This document shows positions 1,584 through 13,067 of a DNA stretch of 39,076 nucleotides, one piece after another (position 1 is the stretch's first letter; each line of letters opens with the position of its first letter). The stretch comes from Candidatus Omnitrophota bacterium. GTDB taxonomy: Bacteria > Ratteibacteria > UBA8468 > B48-G9 > DTJG01. The notes beneath the pieces were generated by a model. It was not told where the DNA came from. It was given only the letters and a program-made list of their open reading frames with translations, and did not search any database. The position numbers and the translations under genes were made by a program. The stretch lies in assembly GCA_023484085.1 (NCBI GenBank), contig JAMDAS010000024.1, positions 1-39,076 of the forward strand, read 5' to 3'.

Positions 1584-2591
1584 TTATTTAAATATACCTG
1601 CAATTGGATGACCGCATCCTGGGCAATTGTTATCTTTTATGTTTTTTTCAAGTATCATATAGCCCAATCTTTTTATAACCGGCGTGGAACATTTGGGACA
1701 GAACGTATTTTCACCATTATTCCCGGGTATATTACCTGTATAAACATGTTTAAACCCATATTTTAATGCCTTTTCCCTGAATTTGTGAATTATTTCCACT
1801 CCTGTAGGATAATGTTCTGACATTCTGAATACTGGAAAAAACCGGGAAAAATGCCATGGTATCTGAGGGTCTATATTATAAAGATTTTCTGCCATAAGTT
1901 CAAATGTTTCATTATCATCATTATAGTCCTGTATAATAAGGGTTGTAACCTCAACCCATATTCCCAGTTCCTTCATTCGTTTTATAGTATTTATAACAGG
2001 CTGAAAATGCGCCTTGCATAGTTTCCTGTAAAAGATTTCATTCCCTTTCAGGTCAACGTTTGCAGCATCTAAATAAGGGGCAATCATATCAAGTGCTTCA
2101 GGGCTCATGTATCCATTTGTAACAAAACAATTTTTGATGCCTTTTTCTTTTGCTGATTTAGATATATCATAAGCCATCTCAAAAAATATTGTCGGTTCTG
2201 TGTATGTGTAGGATATACTTTCACACTTATATTTTAAGGCTCTATCTATTATCCGGGTTATATCTACTTCAGAAGTTTTGAATTCATAACCCATTCCCGG
2301 TGCCTGTGATATTTCATAATTCTGACAGAAACCACACTGGAAATTACATCCTACAGCAGCAATGGAATAAGAAGAACTCCCCGGTAAAAAGTGATAGAAT
2401 GGTTTTTTTTCAATAGGGTCCACGTTTTCAGCAACGGGTTTTTCATATACAAGTGTAAATAATTCACCGCACTTGTTAACTCTTACTCCGCAAATGCCTT
2501 TACTCCCGGGGCCTATTACGCAAAAATGATTACATAGATTACATTGAACGATATTGTTATCCTTTTTTTTATATAGATAGGCCGGGTGCAT
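1584..2591 (-). CDS. amrS: AmmeMemoRadiSam system radical SAM enzyme
   Basis: This 335-aa radical SAM protein has the cluster-binding motif GCNFQCGFCQN (Cys82, Cys86, Cys89), preceded by an N-terminal cysteine set (CNLCNHFC, Cys17-Cys24, and GICG near 34) and by the VYEKPVAENVDPIEKKPFYHFLPG stretch, both characteristic of the AmrS branch of pyruvate-formate-lyase-activase-like proteins. It ends with a zinc-ribbon-like pair, CPKC (298-301) and CPGC (323-326). In other genomes this family co-occurs with AmmeMemoRadiSam proteins A and B, which are not in this window; the reaction is not settled. It starts five bases after the PDZ gene's stop and is followed immediately by the glycosylase gene, so it is part of the same transcript. 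Family confidence is high and function is unknown. Confidence 0.88.
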   Translation of the reverse strand: MHPAYLYKKKDNNIVQCNLCNHFCVIGPGSKGICGVRVNKCGELFTLVYEKPVAENVDPIEKKPFYHFLPGSSSYSIAAVGCNFQCGFCQNYEISQAPGMGYEFKTSEVDITRIIDRALKYKCESISYTYTEPTIFFEMAYDISKSAKEKGIKNCFVTNGYMSPEALDMIAPYLDAANVDLKGNEIFYRKLCKAHFQPVINTIKRMKELGIWVEVTTLIIQDYNDDNETFELMAENLYNIDPQIPWHFSRFFPVFRMSEHYPTGVEIIHKFREKALKYGFKHVYTGNIPGNNGENTFCPKCSTPVIKRLGYMILEKNIKDNNCPGCGHPIAGIFK

Positions 2592-2596
2592 ATTTT

Positions 2597-3421
2597 TTAT
2601 TGAAGATGATACGTTAGAATTACGGGCTGATTATCCCTTAAAACCTGGACAGTTACTACACTTTGATGTGTTTGCATGATATTATTATATACGTGAAATG
2701 CCGTGGCAAGACTGTTAATTTTTACTCCATCCACACTTTGGACAACATCCCCGTTTTGAAGTCCCATTTGAACAGGCAGACTATTGGAGGGAAGATTATT
2801 AACGGAAAATCCTGCAACCTGTCCATTGTTGGCAACCTGCGGGATTAAACTCATGGTACTTAAAAGATTTTTGTCAGATGTTAAATCCTTGAGAGCATTA
2901 TCCGTATTAACATATCTGACAGGCATTATTTTCCGGGAAGCATGTGATACAAGATTATCAAGATTTACCCTGTGTGAATTTGAATTAAGAATATTAACAG
3001 GGGCTGCGTAAGATAAAGCCGTATTCTGTGAAGATATCCCATTATTCATACTAATCATTACCTGCTGATTATTATACCGGAATGTTACGGAATGTTTTTT
3101 TATTTTTAAAATTTCCGCATTTCCAACTGTGTCCTTCTGCGAATAAATGTTTTCCTGATTATTTTCAAGATTTTTGATTATTACCTTTGAATTTTTATCG
3201 GAAGAGTATAATATTCCCATAATCGTTATAACAGTATTAAGAGACGGTGGAGGAGGAACATTTTTAAGGATAGACGTAACAGCTGACGGTGGCGGTGGTG
3301 GAGGAGGAGGCTGTTGAGAAAAAATATTGCTTTTCAGTATGTCTGAATAATTATTTTCTGCAAATGAAAACCCTGTAATGAATAATAAAATAAAACCCAA
3401 AAATAATACTTTATTTTTCAT
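2597..3421 (-). CDS. Secreted PDZ-domain protein, GspC-like (type II secretion-like)
   Basis: About 274 aa counted from the ATG at 3421; a TTG at 3445 would place eight residues before the signal peptide, so the ATG is preferred. The N-terminus MKNKVLFLGFILLFITGFSFA is a signal peptide or signal anchor. A run of eight prolines follows near residue 37, then an HR-like beta domain (ITIMGILYSSDKNSKVIIKN, with QKDTVGNAEILKIKKHSVTFRY), an Asn/Ser-rich linker and a C-terminal PDZ domain (VQMGLQNGDVVQSVDGVKIN). That order (inner-membrane anchor, Pro-rich linker, HR, PDZ) is that of GspC, the type II secretion component linking inner membrane to secretin. Alternatives are another PDZ periplasmic adaptor. 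It follows the two giant surface proteins, which suggests a role in their export, though no other secretion gene of that class is nearby. Confidence 0.7.
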   Translation of the reverse strand: MKNKVLFLGFILLFITGFSFAENNYSDILKSNIFSQQPPPPPPPPSAVTSILKNVPPPPSLNTVITIMGILYSSDKNSKVIIKNLENNQENIYSQKDTVGNAEILKIKKHSVTFRYNNQQVMISMNNGISSQNTALSYAAPVNILNSNSHRVNLDNLVSHASRKIMPVRYVNTDNALKDLTSDKNLLSTMSLIPQVANNGQVAGFSVNNLPSNSLPVQMGLQNGDVVQSVDGVKINSLATAFHVYNNIMQTHQSVVTVQVLRDNQPVILTYHLQ

Positions 3422-3531
3422 ATTATTAATGAAACAATAATTCAAATATAGTAGAAGGCATATTTTCTCCGATGTATATATTTTTGTTATTTATATTATA
3501 TCAGAATCGGGAGTATTAAGCAAATTAAAGT

Positions 3532-6500
3532 CTACCTGTCGTATTTTTTTCTTTTAAGCAATTTAAACAAGAGCAGGATTAGAGATAGTAATACTACTAA
3601 AGGTCCAACCGGAGTTCCCCCCCCTCCACTGGATGAAGATACAGGAAGATTACCAAAAATGTTTCCGCTTGAATAGTTCTGCCCATTGGATGATGTTGCG
3701 TAGAGGGAAAATCCTGGATGTCCTGTGCTGGATGAATTTAGTGCAATCACTCTTGCATACCATGTTCCACCAGAGGAAACAGATACTATTTGTGACATTG
3801 TTCCTGTTGTGGTAGTCCCTGGTACTACAATAATAGTATCTGGATTAGCAATATCAGAAGGTACAGAGTTCCATGCTTCTATATAATAAGCAGTTTCTGT
3901 TGTTGTATTATCATTCCATGTTACAGTAAATCCATTAACACCTGGTAAAAATGTTAAATTTGTAGGATTCTGTCCTGATGGAAATGCAGAAGGTGTTGCT
4001 TCTGCTACATTTGAAGTTTCAGAGTTAGTCTGGTTAAAAGCTATTACCTGGTAATAATAAGGCCTGCCATCACAAAAATATCCTGAACCAAGATAATTTC
4101 CTGTAGAAACATCTATACCTGAATCAACAAAAGAATTATCAGTTGATGGAATTGCAGCGATTGTGGTAAAAGAAGGATTTGGATTTGACGGTGTTGGATG
4201 ATTTCTCTGTATATAAATCCCTTTAGCAGCTAATGGATTACTTGCATTTGTCCACTGAAGTGTGACTTCATTTTGTCCTGGAATAGCATTGAGTCCTACT
4301 GGTGCCTGTAAAATAGCAGTTGTAGTTATTGCTGTATTGGACCATTGAGAATATTGTATTGGACTTCCATTTTTAAATGCTCTTATCATATAAACATAAG
4401 TTGTATTCGCTGATACTGTTGTATCTGTCCAATTTAGTACTTGTCCAACTTGAAAGGTTGTTGTATCTGTATATGTATTACCTGATAAAATATATCTTTG
4501 AATCTGAAATCCTGTTTCACTTGTTCCAGTATACTGCCAGTTTAAATTAACCTGCCATGTGCTTCCCACAATCTGTGAACTTGCAGTTAAATTGGAAGGA
4601 GCAACAAGTCCACTGGGAGGTGGTCCAGATGATGGTGTGGCATAAGCATTTCCATATAAAGAGTAAGCACTATTTGATGTATAGGTATAGGCAGTATAGT
4701 AATAGGCTTTTCCATTAGTAAGTCCTGTATCTATATAAGACAAAGGGGTTGCTCCATCTACATAAACTATAGTTCCATCACCAATAGATTGCCCTACTGT
4801 GTATGTTGTTCCATTTGTGGGCTGGGACGTTGGATAACCTCCTACTTTACGAAGAATTAAAATACCTGTTTGGTTTGGTGGTAAAGTTTGCCAATTTAAT
4901 GTTATCTGGCTATTACCAGGTGTTGCTGTAAATACACCTGTTTGTGTAGGGCTTAAAAGCCAGTTAAAAATAGCTGATAAAACAGCCACCCGGCCATTAC
5001 TTGTTCCTGAAAAATTATTTATTCTTGCAAAATCAAACGGTAGGTACACAAGAGTCCCATTGGTTATAGGATTATAATATGTAAGTCCTGCTCCATCAGA
5101 AGATTGAGGTGCCCCAGGACCTGACGCACTGCCCGTTTCATAAAGAAAACAGAGAGATGCTCCTCCTTGAGGGTCTATTTCTTCAGGAAAATTTGATAAC
5201 TGAGAACTTGGGTCTAATGCTCCATCCGGATTAATAGTTTGAATATTATTTAATGTTTTACTTAAAGGGTTTGTTGAGATACCTGCTATATCATAAAGGG
5301 CAATATCATCTTGAATTTTATTCGCCATAAGAGTATTTGTATAAAATTGCGAACTTCCTATGTCATGGCCTATATTCTGTCCTATAACAAGAAGTTTTCC
5401 TCCTTCACTCAAAAAACTATCTACAGCAATTTGGTCAGAAGGGGAAAATGTATCATTATTGTTTTTCCCTGTAACCCATATAACCATTTTTTGATTTCCA
5501 TCAGAACCTTTGCCAAGATAAGATTTTAATGCCTCCCATGTAATTCCTCCATATTTATTTATCCCTGGTGTTTTTAAATAGGTTTGTCCTCCCCCTGATT
5601 GAGATTGTCCATTATATTGAATATTATTACCATCATACAGATTAATCACATTCCAAATAGTTGTATTAGTATTGTTATAGCCTAAATTGCCAAGAGCTTG
5701 ATATATGGCTGATATATACCAAATTCTGCTATCATAACAGGTATATGTATTATCAGTATTTGGATTTTCATATAAATAAACAAGATAAGGAGTATATGGT
5801 TCAAAAGGGGTAGAAGAAGGTTGATAATAAACAGGAAATGCACTAGAGTTTGTTATTGGATAAAGATTGTAGTTTGTATTGTCAGGACTATTAGAAGCAT
5901 TAGGATTTTGTGATTCTGTATAGAAATCTATAAGAGGATATCTATCTGCCCATCTAAACTGGTCATTAAGAACTAAAAGAACATCACTGGAAAAAGGATA
6001 TGTAAATTGATTATCTACATCAATATACATTCTGGTTTCTTTAGGGAGGTTGCTGGCGCTATTATTAGCAACACGCACAAAATAAAGCCCAGGGCCATTA
6101 CTGCCGGGTCCTGTATCTGTGCTGCCAAAATTTACAGTGTAAGTGCCAGTGCCACCGGATAATGGAAAATTTGTATTTTCACCAGGGTTGGAATCATTTA
6201 GACTGTATCGGGTATCAATAAAATCAGTCGTAAGTGATGATACAACTGCTGTATCTGTTATAGTAGAGCTTACTTTAAATGGATTGATATTGACATTAGA
6301 ACCACCCGGAATTGCATAAACCGGAATATTCAGGGAATCATATTGTAAGGCCGAAGAAGAGGTGGGATTTCCTGGATTTAAAGCCTGTATTTGTGGAGGG
6401 GATATTACTGTGGAAGAAATTTGTTGAGAAGGAATATATAGGGCAGGGTCTCCAAAAAATTCACATTCTACTATTGTTATATAATCATCTACAGACCATG

Positions 6501-8022
6501 TCGGTGAATTTATATTATAAAAATCGTCCAGTGCACTTGCATAAATAGTTCCTAAGTTTGTTTGTGCTGAAGAATTATTAGGATTAGATGTTGCCCGATG
6601 ATAATATTTTGCAAATTCTTCCATAAATTGAGGAAAATTTTTTTGATCTAAGTGTAAAATTCCATTAATAAAATAAAAATTTGGAAGAGTAAAAGGGATT
6701 TGTCTATCTGGTCCAATAAATGCTATTGCTCCACCAGAAGAAAGAAGAGATGATTTACCAAGAGAATTTCCAGATGTGTAATATAATGTATCAAAAGCAG
6801 TATTGTCATCTCCTGAAGAAATGATAACAGGAAGATTATAATTATCAGAAGGATAAGATTGAAAATCAGTTGTATTAATATTTGAACCATCATCAAAATA
6901 AAAATCATCAGGGTCTCCATTTCCTGAAAGTCCTGAAAGGTCATTATAATTTCCACTACCAATAAGATATACAAAACCATTATTTCCTGTAGAAAGTAAA
7001 GTATTTACATTAGTAGATGTAAAATATTGAGGGCTGTTTTGCGGATTTGTCAAAAAATATTTGCTGACATTCATCCCTGAAAGATAACTTTTATTATTAT
7101 AACCACCTTCTGTTGTACTATCCACAGCATTTATAATATTTAAGGCATCCATTTCACCCCAATATATGCGAGGAGTAGGAATTGGCGGTTCAGATTGACT
7201 AGATATACCCCTTATTTGACTGGAATAATTATAGATAGTATTCTGTCCTCCACCTGCAAAGGCAACATTTTTAAACCAGTTCCAGCTGTTTGCAGAATTT
7301 GCATTGTTATACCAATTTTGAATTTTAGTAATTATAGTATTTGCTTCATTGGTATTATTTACTGGGATTCTTGATATAGCATATTGGGGTGCAATACTTA
7401 TTAATCCAGATTGACCTGCACAAGCATAAATAAGGTCTGTAGGATACCAATTATGATGGTTTGAGCCAGTCTGTGTAGTACAATTAATTATATTTTGATT
7501 AGTTGGCACTAAAACATAATCTGCAGGTGGAATAGAAGCGGAATTTCCAAATAAAATAATATCCTGCATTAAAGGAGCTGACACAAATGCTGGCTGATAA
7601 TCCAGAGCATTTGAAAGGTCTAAAATAAATGAAAGTATTTGCCGGGCTAAATGGTGTTCAAGCCAAGGAGGTTTAACAGTATTAGTCCACCAATCTCCAG
7701 CACCGCTTGGATTAAAAGGATTAAGAACATCAGGATTTGCCAGAGGAGGTTCATTAGGTTTTCCATATAAATTCAACCAGTTAGAAACCGTAGGGTCGTT
7801 AAGAAAATATATTGCTGTTTGCATAGGAGTTCCAATAGGATTCGTCATACTTTCTTCAAAAGTTGCCAACTGTTCTGCCTGGGCGGTATATTGGGTAGTT
7901 GTTAAAATTATACATGAGGCATCAGTAAAAGTAGGATCTATTTCATAGGCAAAAAGAGTTTTAACCCACAAACAAAAAACTGCAAAAACAGCAAAAAGCA
8001 GAATAGAGATTTTTTTTATCAT
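3532..8022 (-). CDS. Gingipain-like (C25) secreted protein, apparently catalytically dead, with Fn3 domains and C-terminal sorting tail
   Basis: About 1496 aa. The start chosen is the ATG at 8022, which has AGGAAA upstream and lies just past the propeptide stop; an ATG at 8037 is also open. Residues 1-25 form a signal peptide. A peptidase C25-like region (about 30-540) includes DIILFGNSASIPPADYV and ISRIPVNNTNEANTIITKI, as in gingipains. The expected GHG reads GSG (Ser356), and the expected SSACxTGxFD reads SSGDDNTAFD with no Cys (402-411), so both catalytic residues appear lost. A GATase/Rossmann-like domain (~690-1030, MVIWVTG, GGKLLVIGQNIG) follows, then four Fn3-like domains (~1035-1440) and a tail GGGGTPVGPL, a hydrophobic helix and KRKK. 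The last ~250 residues are near-duplicated in the neighbouring 1493-aa protein. It is presumably exported and surface-anchored. The C25 assignment is motif-based. Confidence 0.72.
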   Translation of the reverse strand: MIKKISILLFAVFAVFCLWVKTLFAYEIDPTFTDASCIILTTTQYTAQAEQLATFEESMTNPIGTPMQTAIYFLNDPTVSNWLNLYGKPNEPPLANPDVLNPFNPSGAGDWWTNTVKPPWLEHHLARQILSFILDLSNALDYQPAFVSAPLMQDIILFGNSASIPPADYVLVPTNQNIINCTTQTGSNHHNWYPTDLIYACAGQSGLISIAPQYAISRIPVNNTNEANTIITKIQNWYNNANSANSWNWFKNVAFAGGGQNTIYNYSSQIRGISSQSEPPIPTPRIYWGEMDALNIINAVDSTTEGGYNNKSYLSGMNVSKYFLTNPQNSPQYFTSTNVNTLLSTGNNGFVYLIGSGNYNDLSGLSGNGDPDDFYFDDGSNINTTDFQSYPSDNYNLPVIISSGDDNTAFDTLYYTSGNSLGKSSLLSSGGAIAFIGPDRQIPFTLPNFYFINGILHLDQKNFPQFMEEFAKYYHRATSNPNNSSAQTNLGTIYASALDDFYNINSPTWSVDDYITIVECEFFGDPALYIPSQQISSTVISPPQIQALNPGNPTSSSALQYDSLNIPVYAIPGGSNVNINPFKVSSTITDTAVVSSLTTDFIDTRYSLNDSNPGENTNFPLSGGTGTYTVNFGSTDTGPGSNGPGLYFVRVANNSASNLPKETRMYIDVDNQFTYPFSSDVLLVLNDQFRWADRYPLIDFYTESQNPNASNSPDNTNYNLYPITNSSAFPVYYQPSSTPFEPYTPYLVYLYENPNTDNTYTCYDSRIWYISAIYQALGNLGYNNTNTTIWNVINLYDGNNIQYNGQSQSGGGQTYLKTPGINKYGGITWEALKSYLGKGSDGNQKMVIWVTGKNNNDTFSPSDQIAVDSFLSEGGKLLVIGQNIGHDIGSSQFYTNTLMANKIQDDIALYDIAGISTNPLSKTLNNIQTINPDGALDPSSQLSNFPEEIDPQGGASLCFLYETGSASGPGAPQSSDGAGLTYYNPITNGTLVYLPFDFARINNFSGTSNGRVAVLSAIFNWLLSPTQTGVFTATPGNSQITLNWQTLPPNQTGILILRKVGGYPTSQPTNGTTYTVGQSIGDGTIVYVDGATPLSYIDTGLTNGKAYYYTAYTYTSNSAYSLYGNAYATPSSGPPPSGLVAPSNLTASSQIVGSTWQVNLNWQYTGTSETGFQIQRYILSGNTYTDTTTFQVGQVLNWTDTTVSANTTYVYMIRAFKNGSPIQYSQWSNTAITTTAILQAPVGLNAIPGQNEVTLQWTNASNPLAAKGIYIQRNHPTPSNPNPSFTTIAAIPSTDNSFVDSGIDVSTGNYLGSGYFCDGRPYYYQVIAFNQTNSETSNVAEATPSAFPSGQNPTNLTFLPGVNGFTVTWNDNTTTETAYYIEAWNSVPSDIANPDTIIVVPGTTTTGTMSQIVSVSSGGTWYARVIALNSSSTGHPGFSLYATSSNGQNYSSGNIFGNLPVSSSSGGGGTPVGPLVVLLSLILLLFKLLKRKKYDR

Positions 8023-8026
8023 TTTC

Positions 8027-8605
8027 CTAGTTCCCATAAATATCTATTTCTCCTGAAGTAATCAGTATTACTTTTTTTGTTACCGGATTATACTGCACCG
8101 GATAAATGAATATATATAGGACATTATTATTCATTACAGTAGACTGGGTAAATGCTACAATTTTCCCGGGGAAACAGGAATTATCTGTATATATATTTTT
8201 ATCAGGATTATAAGTCAAACCTTGTGGTTGGGGGGCAATATTAAGCGTATTTTCAATGTCAATATATTTAGCATTTATGATTTTGATTCCTGTAATTTTT
8301 ATGTTAGGTGATAGATTAAGTTCAATAATTTTTACAGGTAAAAGAGGTTGCCCTGGTTTAGCCTGGAGAGTTAAGCCTGTAATATGGATAATGTCATAAT
8401 TGTTTATAGTTTGTCCTAATTCACATTGGCTTTGAGAAATATAAAAATTAATTTTTTGTATATTGCTCCCTGATGTTTGTCCCGATGACATTTGCAGTGA
8501 TTGTCCCGTCTGTAGATTTTTTTCACTTGAAAACATAAGCTGAGAGGCTTGAACATAACTGAACGCAGATAAAATAAAAAAAAGGCTAAAGATTATTTTT
8601 TTCAT
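8027..8605 (-). CDS. Separate C25-type (gingipain) propeptide protein
   Basis: About 192 aa from the ATG at 8605; an in-frame ATG at 8626 adds seven residues. It has a clear signal peptide (MKKIIFSLFFILSAFSYVQA). The body resembles the gingipain propeptide family: YDIIHITGLTLQAKPGQPLLPVKIIELNLS, then a PQPQGL segment and the closing YIFIYPVQYNPVTKKVILITSGEIDIYG. In known C25 proteases this region is fused N-terminal to the peptidase, which it keeps latent or chaperones. Here it stops with TAG at 8027-8029, four bases before the next gene's ATG, and that gene has its own signal peptide. The two would therefore meet after export as separate chains. The start overlaps the end of the upstream surface-protein gene by about 20 bases, which suggests translational coupling. 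Confidence 0.72.
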   Translation of the reverse strand: MKKIIFSLFFILSAFSYVQASQLMFSSEKNLQTGQSLQMSSGQTSGSNIQKINFYISQSQCELGQTINNYDIIHITGLTLQAKPGQPLLPVKIIELNLSPNIKITGIKIINAKYIDIENTLNIAPQPQGLTYNPDKNIYTDNSCFPGKIVAFTQSTVMNNNVLYIFIYPVQYNPVTKKVILITSGEIDIYGN

Positions 8606-11600
8606 GTTTTTTAATAATTTTAACATTAAAAATAAATTTAATCAACATTAAAATTGCAACTAATAATATTGTCAGAGGACCAACAGGAGTTCCTCCACCA
8701 CCGGAAAACTTGACTGATAACAGATTACCAAAAACATTTCCCCCTGAATAATCCTGGCCATTGGATGCTGTTGCATAGAGTGAAAAACCATGTGAACCTT
8801 GAGCAATAATCCTTGTGTACCATGGGCCTGAAGACGTGACTGATACGGTATGGCTCATTAAACCGGTTGTTGATGTTCCGGGAATCGTGATAATGCTGTC
8901 AGGATTTGTAATATCAGAAGGTATATTATTATCCCATATTTCTATGTAATAAGCGGTATCCGTAGATGTATTATTGGTCCATGTGACGGTAAATCCATTA
9001 TATCCGGGTAAAAACTGGAGATTTGCAGGATTTTGCCCTGCTGGAAAATCTGAAGGGATTGCTGAAGCAACGTTTGAAGTTTCAGAGTTTGTAGAGCTAA
9101 ATGCCACAACCTGGTAATAATAAGGCCTGCCATCAGAGAAATACCCGGAGCCAAGATAATTACCTGAAGCAATGTTATATCCTGAATCAACAAAAGTTTT
9201 ATTTGTTGATGGCAATGTAGTAATTGCTGTAAAAGAAGGATTTGGATTTGCAGGTGTAGGATGTTTTCTCATGATTATAAAACTATCAATCCCTGTAAAA
9301 TCAGTTATCCATTGCAGTGTAACCTCATTTTGTCCTGCAGTTACAGTAAGACTTAACTGTGCAAAAGTTACAACTATAGTATGGTTTATTGTCACGTTAT
9401 TTATTACGTATGGATTGACAACAGGCACTGACATTCCATTATCAGTAATACCTGCAAGCTGGTATCCTGTATTGGGGGTTATGGTAATAGACGCTGAACT
9501 GCCGTAATTGACTGTCTGGGTTACAGGTGAAACTGTTCCATTTCCACCATTGATTGATGCATTGACCGTCAAAGTGATAATGGAGAAGGTTACTACTACT
9601 GTATGATTTGCCGTCACGTTATTTATAGTATATGTTTCACCGGATGAATTGGTGATAGGTTCAGAAGTTCCATTATCAGTAATGCTTGATATTCCGTATC
9701 CTGTATTAGGCATTATGGTAATAGAGGCTGAATTTCCGGCTGTCACATTTTGAGTGGCAGGTGAAACTGTTCCATTTCCACCGCTGACTGATGCCGTTAC
9801 TGTATAAAGAGGGGCAAAATTTATAACTACCGTATGATTTGTCGTCACATTATTTATTATGTATGGATTGATAACAGGCATGGAAGTTCCATTATCCGTA
9901 ATAGTCTGTATCCCGTATCCTGGATTAGGCGTTATGGTAATAGATGCGGAACTGCCGGATACCACGCTTTGAGTGGCAGGCGATACTGTTCCATTTCCTC
10001 CGTTGACAGATGCCGTTACTGTATAAAGAGGGGCAAAATTTATAACTACCGTATGATTTGCCGTCACGTTATTTATAGTATATGTTTCACCGGATGAATT
10101 GGTGATAGGTTCAGAAGTTCCATTATCAGTAATGCTTGATATTCCGTATCCTGCATTAGGCGTTATGGTAATAGACGCCGAACTGCCGTAATTGACTGTC
10201 TGTGTTGCGGGTGAAACTGTTCCATTTCCGCCATTGACTGATGCATTGATTGTCCATGTGATAATGGAGAAGGTTACTACTACCGTATGATTTGTTACCA
10301 CATTATTTATCACATAAGGATTGGCAATGAGCATGGAAGTTCCATTATCAGTAATGCTTGATATTTGGTATCCTGTATTGGGTGTGATTGTAATAGATGC
10401 TGAGCCACCGGATACCACGCTTTGAGTGGCAGGCGATACTGTTCCATTTCCTCCGCTGACTGATGCCGTTACTGTGTATGCAGTAGCGAAAGCTACAACT
10501 ACCGTATGATTTGCCGTCACGTTATTTATAGTATATGTTTCACCGGATGAATTGGTGATAGGTTCAGAAGTTCCATTATCAGTAATGCTTGATATTCCGT
10601 ATCCTGTATTAGGCGTTATGGTAATAGAGGCTGAATTTCCGGCTGTCACATTTTGAGTGGCAGGTGATACTGTTCCATTTCCTCCGTTGACAGATGCCGT
10701 TACTGTGTATGTAAGGGATATAGAAAAAACTCCTCTGCCATGTGTAGAAGCTAAGAGAGTGGAATTATTAAACCATGCAAGTTGCTCAACGCAGACGTTG
10801 GCAGGTCCGTCATTTGTTGCATTCCATATGGTTCCGCCATCTGTACTGTCAAATATACCTGCGTCAGTGCCTATGTATAGCCATTGAGAATTGGATGGAT
10901 TAGTTGTGATACTGTAAACCGGTACCTGCGGTAAGCCACTTGAATTAGGGTCAATGTCAGTCCATGTATTTCCATTGTCAGCAGTAACCCAGATATTGTC
11001 AGACGTGTATCCGCCGAAGGTAACATATACCTGATTAGAATTATTCGGAGCAATGAAAATGCTTAAAACCATTTGAGCAGGAAAAGAACCTCCGCCGACC
11101 TGCTGCCATGTCGGAGTATTGATAGTACCTGTCATGCGATAGACAGTCCCATCATTATGTCCAACCCAGATGTCATTGGAATTACCATAAGCTACAGCGA
11201 TGGCACTGATATCAGAAGAAGTAGGAAGAGTGCTGCCATTAATGGACGTCCATGTTGGTGTTGAATTTTTTATATTCTGGCTGAGCCATAAGGATGTTCC
11301 GCCTGCCAACATTGTATTATTATTGTTTGGGTCAAGAATGAATGGAGCTATGAAATTTGCATTGCTGAAGGTATCACCCGGTTCATTAGTTAATTCAGAG
11401 GCTTGTGTTGCTCCGCCATCTGTAGAGCGAAAAATATCAAGATAAACGTATTCTCCATACAGATAATCACCGTCAGCAGTATCCACGGCCGTATCACCGC
11501 CATCACCGCCAAAAAATGCTGTCCATGCAGGTGAACCTGAATATAGTAAAGAGCCATTATCCTGTGCTCCCCCAATAATTGGAGTGATATTGTTGTTTTG

Positions 11601-13067
11601 TGCAGCCACTGCTGTGGAATGACCCGCCACGCTATAAAACTGGGTAATAGCCAATCCATTATTCAATTCCGTCCATCCGCTGGTCGTAGTCACTGCAGTA
11701 ACGTCATTTGCAAAATAGAGTCCGCCATCATCACCAAAATAGACCTTGCGGTCAGTACTTCCGTTATAACCCGGGTCAGATATAATGACATGATGGTCAG
11801 CATGAGGGCTTGTAGGAGTATTTGTCCAGTCACTGATTTGGGTCCACGTATTACCGCCATCAGTGGATTGCCATAAATTAAGTCCGCCAATAACAAGATG
11901 ATTGGAATTTGTCGGTGATACCCAGATTGTGTTTGCATACCAACCCTGGGACAAATGGTCAGGTGTACTAATATATGTCCATGTTTGTCCTCCATCAGTG
12001 GACTTATAAATATCACCGTCCATCTTTTGTCCATTAATAACAGACTGGTTATTGGTATTATCATACGAGGCATAAACAAGATTTGAAGTGCTTTTGGCAT
12101 AAGATAGTTCAGCACGACCATACATAGGCGTTCCAAGATTAGAGACCGTCCATGTTTGTCCTCCATTCGTAGAATACTCAATTGCAACTGTTCCGGTATT
12201 ATATGGGTCATCTATGTCTGCAACTGCATTGGACGAATTATTTGGGTCAAAAGCCACATCAAGACTTCTTCCTGTCGCAACCTCTGTCCATGTACTTCCA
12301 CCATTAGTACTGCGATAAATACCGCCTGTAACAAAGGTAGATTCACCTGTAGCATAACCTCCTGTAGCAGCAAGCATGGTTGTTCCATCAGGGCTAATGG
12401 CAATCCGGTTAACAAAGTACCAGTCAGAATTATTTGTTGGGTTAGTTGAAGGCAACAATTGCCACGTACTTCCATTATCAGTGGAATAGAAAATCCCATA
12501 ACCACGAATAGCATCACCGTTATAAAATCCTTCTCCGGTTCCTGCATATAGATACCCATTTACTGGATTCTGTGCTATGGTACAAATTGAAAGATTGGGC
12601 AGAAAATCATTCACAGGATTCCATGAGGCTCCTGCATTAGAGCTAACCCATAGACCCCCTCCTACACTGCCTACTAATATATGATTTGAATTTTGGGGGT
12701 CTATCCATATGGACCTGATTCGTCCACCGATGTTATTCGGACCCAAAGAAACCCAGCTAAGATTAGAAATTCCGGCGTTTTGCCATATAATCTGACTCTG
12801 ACTCAAACCTAAAGCAGATGCTGCTTTTTCCTGTCTGTTAACCATTGCCGCACGTTCGGCAACACCCTGTATATAACCATTTGGCTTGACGAGACCATTT
12901 GAATCTCTCAACTGTAAATACCTGAAATGTGCCTCTGCCTGAAAATAATCAGGAGGACTTGAAAAAGACCTGTTGACAGGAGATGAATATAAATTTTTAA
13001 CCGGCAGTAAGATTGAAAAAAAAGTTATAAAAATAATAGATGCAAAGATGATTATATCGTTTTTCAT
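8586..13067 (-). CDS. Asp-box (BNR/sortilin-like) beta-propeller surface protein with six tandem repeats and C-terminal sorting tail
   Basis: This 1493-aa exported protein starts with ATG two bases after the rex stop. Residues 1-30 form a signal peptide. About 95-785 are a beta-propeller with many Asp-boxes (STDNGSTW, STNGGSTW, STDGGQTW, STDGGNTW) and the opening LGPNNIGGRIRSIWIDP typical of large secreted BNR proteins. About 786-1237 hold six tandem ~72-77-residue repeats (GGNGTVSPATQ, ASITITPNTGY, ITDNGTS, INNVTxNHTVVV), similar to the divergent InlB-B/Flg_new-type repeats. Fn3-like domains follow (~1240-1445), then GGGGTPVGPL, a hydrophobic helix and KIIKKHEKNN. No catalytic site is evident, so adhesion or ligand binding is the likely role (inference). 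The C-terminal ~250 residues match those of the C25-like protein. Confidence 0.82.
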   Translation of the reverse strand: MKNDIIIFASIIFITFFSILLPVKNLYSSPVNRSFSSPPDYFQAEAHFRYLQLRDSNGLVKPNGYIQGVAERAAMVNRQEKAASALGLSQSQIIWQNAGISNLSWVSLGPNNIGGRIRSIWIDPQNSNHILVGSVGGGLWVSSNAGASWNPVNDFLPNLSICTIAQNPVNGYLYAGTGEGFYNGDAIRGYGIFYSTDNGSTWQLLPSTNPTNNSDWYFVNRIAISPDGTTMLAATGGYATGESTFVTGGIYRSTNGGSTWTEVATGRSLDVAFDPNNSSNAVADIDDPYNTGTVAIEYSTNGGQTWTVSNLGTPMYGRAELSYAKSTSNLVYASYDNTNNQSVINGQKMDGDIYKSTDGGQTWTYISTPDHLSQGWYANTIWVSPTNSNHLVIGGLNLWQSTDGGNTWTQISDWTNTPTSPHADHHVIISDPGYNGSTDRKVYFGDDGGLYFANDVTAVTTTSGWTELNNGLAITQFYSVAGHSTAVAAQNNNITPIIGGAQDNGSLLYSGSPAWTAFFGGDGGDTAVDTADGDYLYGEYVYLDIFRSTDGGATQASELTNEPGDTFSNANFIAPFILDPNNNNTMLAGGTSLWLSQNIKNSTPTWTSINGSTLPTSSDISAIAVAYGNSNDIWVGHNDGTVYRMTGTINTPTWQQVGGGSFPAQMVLSIFIAPNNSNQVYVTFGGYTSDNIWVTADNGNTWTDIDPNSSGLPQVPVYSITTNPSNSQWLYIGTDAGIFDSTDGGTIWNATNDGPANVCVEQLAWFNNSTLLASTHGRGVFSISLTYTVTASVNGGNGTVSPATQNVTAGNSASITITPNTGYGISSITDNGTSEPITNSSGETYTINNVTANHTVVVAFATAYTVTASVSGGNGTVSPATQSVVSGGSASITITPNTGYQISSITDNGTSMLIANPYVINNVVTNHTVVVTFSIITWTINASVNGGNGTVSPATQTVNYGSSASITITPNAGYGISSITDNGTSEPITNSSGETYTINNVTANHTVVINFAPLYTVTASVNGGNGTVSPATQSVVSGSSASITITPNPGYGIQTITDNGTSMPVINPYIINNVTTNHTVVINFAPLYTVTASVSGGNGTVSPATQNVTAGNSASITIMPNTGYGISSITDNGTSEPITNSSGETYTINNVTANHTVVVTFSIITLTVNASINGGNGTVSPVTQTVNYGSSASITITPNTGYQLAGITDNGMSVPVVNPYVINNVTINHTIVVTFAQLSLTVTAGQNEVTLQWITDFTGIDSFIIMRKHPTPANPNPSFTAITTLPSTNKTFVDSGYNIASGNYLGSGYFSDGRPYYYQVVAFSSTNSETSNVASAIPSDFPAGQNPANLQFLPGYNGFTVTWTNNTSTDTAYYIEIWDNNIPSDITNPDSIITIPGTSTTGLMSHTVSVTSSGPWYTRIIAQGSHGFSLYATASNGQDYSGGNVFGNLLSVKFSGGGGTPVGPLTILLVAILMLIKFIFNVKIIKKHEKNNL
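9352..10710 (-). repeat. Six tandem ~220-bp coding repeats inside the surface-protein gene
   Basis: These direct repeats encode six copies of a beta-strand-rich module. Odd-numbered copies are longer and carry EPITNSSGETYTINNVT; even-numbered copies replace this with a shorter NPYxINNVxxNHT segment, so the order is long-short-long-short-long-short. DNA identity between same-class copies is very high, which implies recent expansion of a two-module unit. Confidence 0.85.

Follow-up and report, generated by a model that had tools for sequence, protein, structure and literature searches.

Two giant secreted proteins encoded next to each other in the genome of an uncultured bacterium end in a tripartite tail that we designate PVGPL-CTERM: the last ~35 residues, made up of a Gly-rich stretch, a P-V-G-P-L-A-like motif, a short membrane helix and a Lys/Arg end. 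Taking all the evidence together, the best explanation, and one that we consider likely, is that PVGPL-CTERM is a sorting signal cut by a dedicated divergent rhomboid and used for surface anchoring. Vibrio and Myxococcus have systems in which a tail is cut and the protein anchored, and the present one is probably a version of these that has not been described. This explanation draws on the observed tails and their C-terminal position, a candidate protease, the co-distribution of tail and protease, a suffix swap in related genomes and linkage to GspC. The first-pass annotation had raised the possibility of an undescribed C-terminal sorting variant, and the recovery of further tails together with a co-distributed rhomboid candidate supports it.

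The window (the whole stretch of 39,076 nucleotides that was analysed) encodes P0001, a 1501-aa C25-peptidase-like protein (3532..8037, minus strand; PF01364, E = 7e-26) with a signal-peptide-like N-terminus based on hydropathy, and P0002, a 1493-aa secreted protein with Sortilin/BNR and InlB-type repeats (8586..13067, minus strand; PF15902, E = 8.5e-22; PF18998, E = 1e-23). The translations of both carry the C-terminal tail. The two proteins can be aligned only at their C-termini, where 162 of 268 residues are identical (60%, E = 5e-91), and their N-terminal parts match different Pfam families, in agreement with the initial description of near-duplicate C-termini of ~250 residues on otherwise unrelated proteins. 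The common ending that had been described, GGGGTPVGPL followed by a hydrophobic helix and a basic tail, is likewise present in both as the motif, a hydrophobic stretch and a Lys/Arg tail. However, the ~250 residues had been treated as one module with its sorting tail, and only the last ~35 behave like a sorting signal. The shared region consists of a ~215-residue, two-domain fn3/Ig-like module (3649..4302 in P0001 and 8715..9371 in P0002, both minus strand), which precedes a ~35-residue tripartite tail (SSSSGGGGTPVGPLVVLLSLILLLFKLLKRKKYDR at 3535..3639 and VKFSGGGGTPVGPLTILLVAILMLIKFIFNVKIIKKHEKNNL at 8589..8714, both minus strand). Matches of the module to the Pfam fn3 and Kre9_KNH Ig-like families are weak, and those to PDB sequences, all glucanase or chitosanase chains, are marginal (E = 0.04). 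A low-confidence structure model of module plus tail, built on a two-sequence alignment, is strand-rich (pLDDT 45).

The match reported at the DNA level is real, with 69% identity over 249 aligned codons, but it is not the trace of a recent copy. Synonymous divergence in the shared region is high (dS ~1.0) and dN/dS is ~0.29, which rules out a recent gene duplication and marks the similarity, as judged from these rates, as old and constrained at the protein level. The tails are only 55% identical at the DNA level, below the module.

Several features of the two genes lie outside the shared region. The C25 catalytic residues of P0001 are apparently lost, with GSG and SSGD opposite the GHS and QGC of relatives in a part where the alignment is weak; a homologue in a related genome (G014) likewise appears inactive by the same weak alignment. 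A separate 199-aa C25 propeptide ORF (8027..8626, minus strand; PF08126, E = 1e-11) has its own signal-like N-terminus and shares 11 nt with the beginning of the P0001 gene, whereas the G014 homologue is a single protein of 1824 aa; the separate ORF is either a split zymogen or a frameshift. In P0002, six divergent InlB B-repeats (window positions 9356-10804) are tandem DNA repeats of 219-234 nt, with identities of up to 96% in alternation.

The genome containing the window is a 906-kb MAG of 62.6% completeness, and the genomes with which it was compared are incomplete MAGs as well. Searched as a DNA pattern, GG-x-P-V-G-P has four matches in the 906 kb, every one of them C-terminal, and the reversed-motif control has none in the same genome. 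Thus, the motif exceeds chance expectation. The four tails belong to P0001, P0002, a 2537-aa protein on contig C6 and a protein at the edge of contig C26. A profile built from this genome alone and run against 145 others found tails (E < 0.01) in three, G001, G029 and G033. With a wider profile and 386 genomes, the carriers within the class were again only these three and the window's own genome (G000), that is, 4 of 35 class genomes, with 16 tails among them (4+3+7+2). The further tail-bearing proteins that the first-pass annotation had proposed to look for thus exist. Among weak matches outside the class, the one in G062 is a Cys-bearing, MYXO-CTERM-like tail and the others are not PVGPL tails.

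Nearly all of the 16 tails have ~20 residues from the motif to the end, and none has a Cys in the signature. The helices are short, with ~11-12 uncharged residues after the P, and the Gly run is missing in some tails of G029 and G033 (DSGSLPVGPLAAG). Based on hydropathy only, the N-termini of the complete tail proteins are signal-like, and in most of these proteins the internal hydropathy maximum is below those of the tail and the N-terminus.

A candidate for the sorting protease, also sought after the first reading, is encoded in the same genome as P0001 and P0002 (C12:4869-5495). This rhomboid scores 61.7 bits against the rhombosortase model TIGR03902 (E = 4e-17) and only 28 bits against the general rhomboid model, and the rhomboid-model search found no other convincing rhomboid in this genome. 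In a TIGR03902 scan of 146 genomes, the intact copies of G000, G001 and G033 fall at 62-75 bits (individual scores 61.7, 62.5 and 75.1), all under the curated cut-off of 84, a split copy in G029 scores 44 and 26 bits, and other class members reach at most 37.5 bits. The C12 rhomboid has its catalytic Ser in GLSGITYG and its His in VCHLAG. GLSG and CHxxG are invariant in the intact copies, which keep the catalytic Ser and the TM6 His. All three also have the active site GLSGITY and lack the His of SGxxH, which replaces GlpG Tyr-205 and is nearly invariant in rhombosortases (PMC3237569).

In a tree of class rhomboids, the three intact copies group together with 100/100 support at the end of a long branch, and the 13 ordinary rhomboids, from 13 class genomes, lie separately. 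Their own profile gives 353-387 bits for these three, which are its members, and at most 27 for the rest. By sequence comparison, the divergent rhomboid is closer to rhombosortase than it is to ordinary rhomboids. A low-confidence structure model from a two-sequence alignment (pLDDT 55) had no meaningful match among PDB structures using Foldseek, and a tblastn search of plasmids for rhomboid relatives gave one weak match, to an ordinary rhomboid. The exosortase that had been named as an alternative (PF09721) occurs in 0 of the 35 class genomes and is ruled out as the partner of the tail. In G029, the rhombosortase-like gene (L034:1300-1961) lies in two overlapping frames while seven tail proteins persist; the split reflects either an assembly error or decay.

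The tail carriers are exactly the four class genomes with the divergent rhomboid, counting the split copy of G029. Tail and rhomboid coincide in 4 of 4 versus 0 of 31 genomes (Fisher test, P = 1.9e-5 by genome and 0.011 by genus), a co-occurrence that rests on two genera representing two independent lineages. The tail profile and TIGR03902 searches are independent routes to the same four genomes.

The module also occurs without the tail, in six rhomboid-negative genomes. Each of the six has, behind the module, a CFI-box-CTERM domain (NF041770) scoring over the curated cut-off. In three of them (G018, G023 and G025) the protein with module and CFI-box-CTERM is encoded 8-11 nt upstream of gspC. 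The P0001 homologue of G014 (32% identity over 1056 aa), whose gene lies 7 nt upstream of gspC, has CFI-box-CTERM at its C-terminus as well. We read the alternation of tail and CFI-box-CTERM behind a homologous module as a suffix swap, the same kind of argument that Haft and Varghese made for GlyGly-CTERM (PMC3237569). CFI-box-CTERM resembles the PVGPL tail in being a C-terminal suffix on homologous secreted class proteins, including module-bearing proteins next to gspC. It differs in being a ~69-residue domain of other sequence and in occurring in rhomboid-negative genomes, although G033 has both suffix types. Large secreted proteins of the class commonly carry the domain (L104, L105, L108, L109, L132-L137, L119), and several of them are encoded directly upstream of gspC; we found no paper naming it in the literature searched.

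The GspC-like gene reported to follow at once (2597..3445, minus strand) lies on the same strand, 86 nt downstream of P0001. Its product has a C-terminal PDZ domain (PF13180, E = 4e-6) and a GspC homology region scoring 91 bits with NF041515 (E = 8.5e-26) and 43 bits with TIGR01713, both under the cut-offs. Because the class homologue in G033 adjoins gspD (over its cut-off), gspE and gspF, the homology identifies the window gene as a real relative of the type II secretion system (T2SS). Of the remaining gsp genes that were to be looked for, these three are present in this relative. However, 31 of the 35 class genomes have GspC, which rules out a neighborhood specific to the tail. The class-wide GspC search detected none in G001 and G029, two tail-bearing genomes that are each 90% complete. 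In G001, the gene for a 478-aa tail protein (L112:3307-4740) is flanked by GspF-like and pseudopilin genes. In the window, gspC also adjoins a radical SAM gene of AmmeMemoRadiSam type, assigned by eye (1584-3445), a pair that is conserved in many class genomes (L122, L138, L140, L144-L149) and for which no link is obvious.

The tail-bearing proteins are probably T2SS substrates, and the layout of module and tail upstream of a PDZ-bearing GspC is that of the VesB system. Surface display of the V. cholerae GlyGly-CTERM protein VesB requires the rhombosortase RssP and the T2SS (PMC6219818), and its Ig fold holds secretion information that depends on the PDZ domain of EpsC/GspC (PMC12369372). In the same species, the CTERM alone leads to membrane association, and passage through the outer membrane requires a second signal (PMC13393428). 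By analogy, PVGPL-CTERM proteins would first be exported by Sec and then retained in the inner membrane by the tail. The C12 rhomboid would cut at or near the Gly/PVGPL motif, and the new C-terminus would probably be linked to a lipid, in parallel with the action of rhombosortase on VesB. The fn3/Ig-like module may hold the information for secretion, like the VesB Ig fold, which acts through the GspC PDZ, and the T2SS would carry the proteins out.

How far this system is distinct from GlyGly-CTERM (TIGR03501) and rhombosortase (TIGR03902; RssP in V. cholerae) is the closest question, and that it is a bona fide but sequence-divergent member is quite possible, at somewhat less than even chances. 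Mechanistically, membership overlaps with the preferred explanation. It would account for the shared tripartite architecture, with a Gly-rich, Cys-free signature (the Gly run being absent from some G029 and G033 tails), a Leu-rich helix and a basic end, and for a rhomboid partner that is closest to TIGR03902. The two systems also share secreted cargo of unrelated families, many targets per rhomboid, co-distribution and a T2SS context. Against it, TIGR03501 matched none of 14 tails at E ≤ 10, the best related tail model for the same tails being NF038115 (E = 0.014). The PVGPL tail adds its P-V-G-P-L-A motif, which persists in tails that lack the Gly run. The rhomboids stay under the TIGR03902 cut-off, have SGITY rather than SGxxH (PMC3237569), and in TM6 have CHxxG rather than AHxxGxxxG. 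The likeness to GlyGly-CTERM and rhombosortase that the first-pass annotation had seen therefore holds for architecture, the absence of Cys, cargo and co-distribution, and fails for both models and for SGxxH. Because of these three failures, our reading of the sequences is that the PVGPL system works like a rhombosortase system but should not be filed as a member.

It is unlikely that the tail is a simple uncleaved membrane anchor inherited with the shared domain, the rhomboid being unrelated. A Gly linker, hydrophobic helix and basic residues would suffice for stop-transfer, and cleavage is a deduction from sequence. However, a specific motif recurs at a nearly fixed distance from the end of unrelated proteins in four genomes, the tail occurs only where the special rhomboid does, module homologues elsewhere bear a different suffix, and the helices are short. 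Processing by another enzyme, for example a CPBP-type myxosortase (TIGR03901) or an unknown protease, with a coincidental rhomboid, is very improbable. Among curated tail models, the tripartite MYXO-CTERM comes closest to P0001 (15.2 bits, cut-off 20), but the invariant Cys that its signature requires is missing, and a rhomboid is the candidate partner in the present case. PEP-CTERM tails share a Pro-containing motif, helix and basic cluster, but their exosortases are absent from the 35 class genomes. A coincidence of 4 of 4 versus 0 of 31 is unlikely even by genus.

Relative to the preferred explanation of a rhomboid-cut sorting signal, a more far-reaching proposal is offered tentatively, as something we would sooner doubt than assert: that a second, independently specialised rhomboid lineage of SGITY type is the dedicated PVGPL-CTERM sorting enzyme in an uncultured phylum, with a detachable fn3/Ig-like T2SS module and with CFI-box-CTERM in rhomboid-less relatives. 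In a 2011 survey, most rhombosortase systems came from Proteobacteria, and Planctomycetes and Verrucomicrobia contributed single cases (PMC3237569). If the sorting explanation is true, an uncultured lineage would have a rhomboid from a different sequence class that is paired with a tail of its own, and rhomboids would have been recruited for sorting in a wider range of bacteria or repeatedly. Intramembrane proteases would gain a new set of natural substrates, and surface anchoring would be connected with the cargo of the T2SS. The suffix swap also offers a handle on the CFI-box-CTERM domain.
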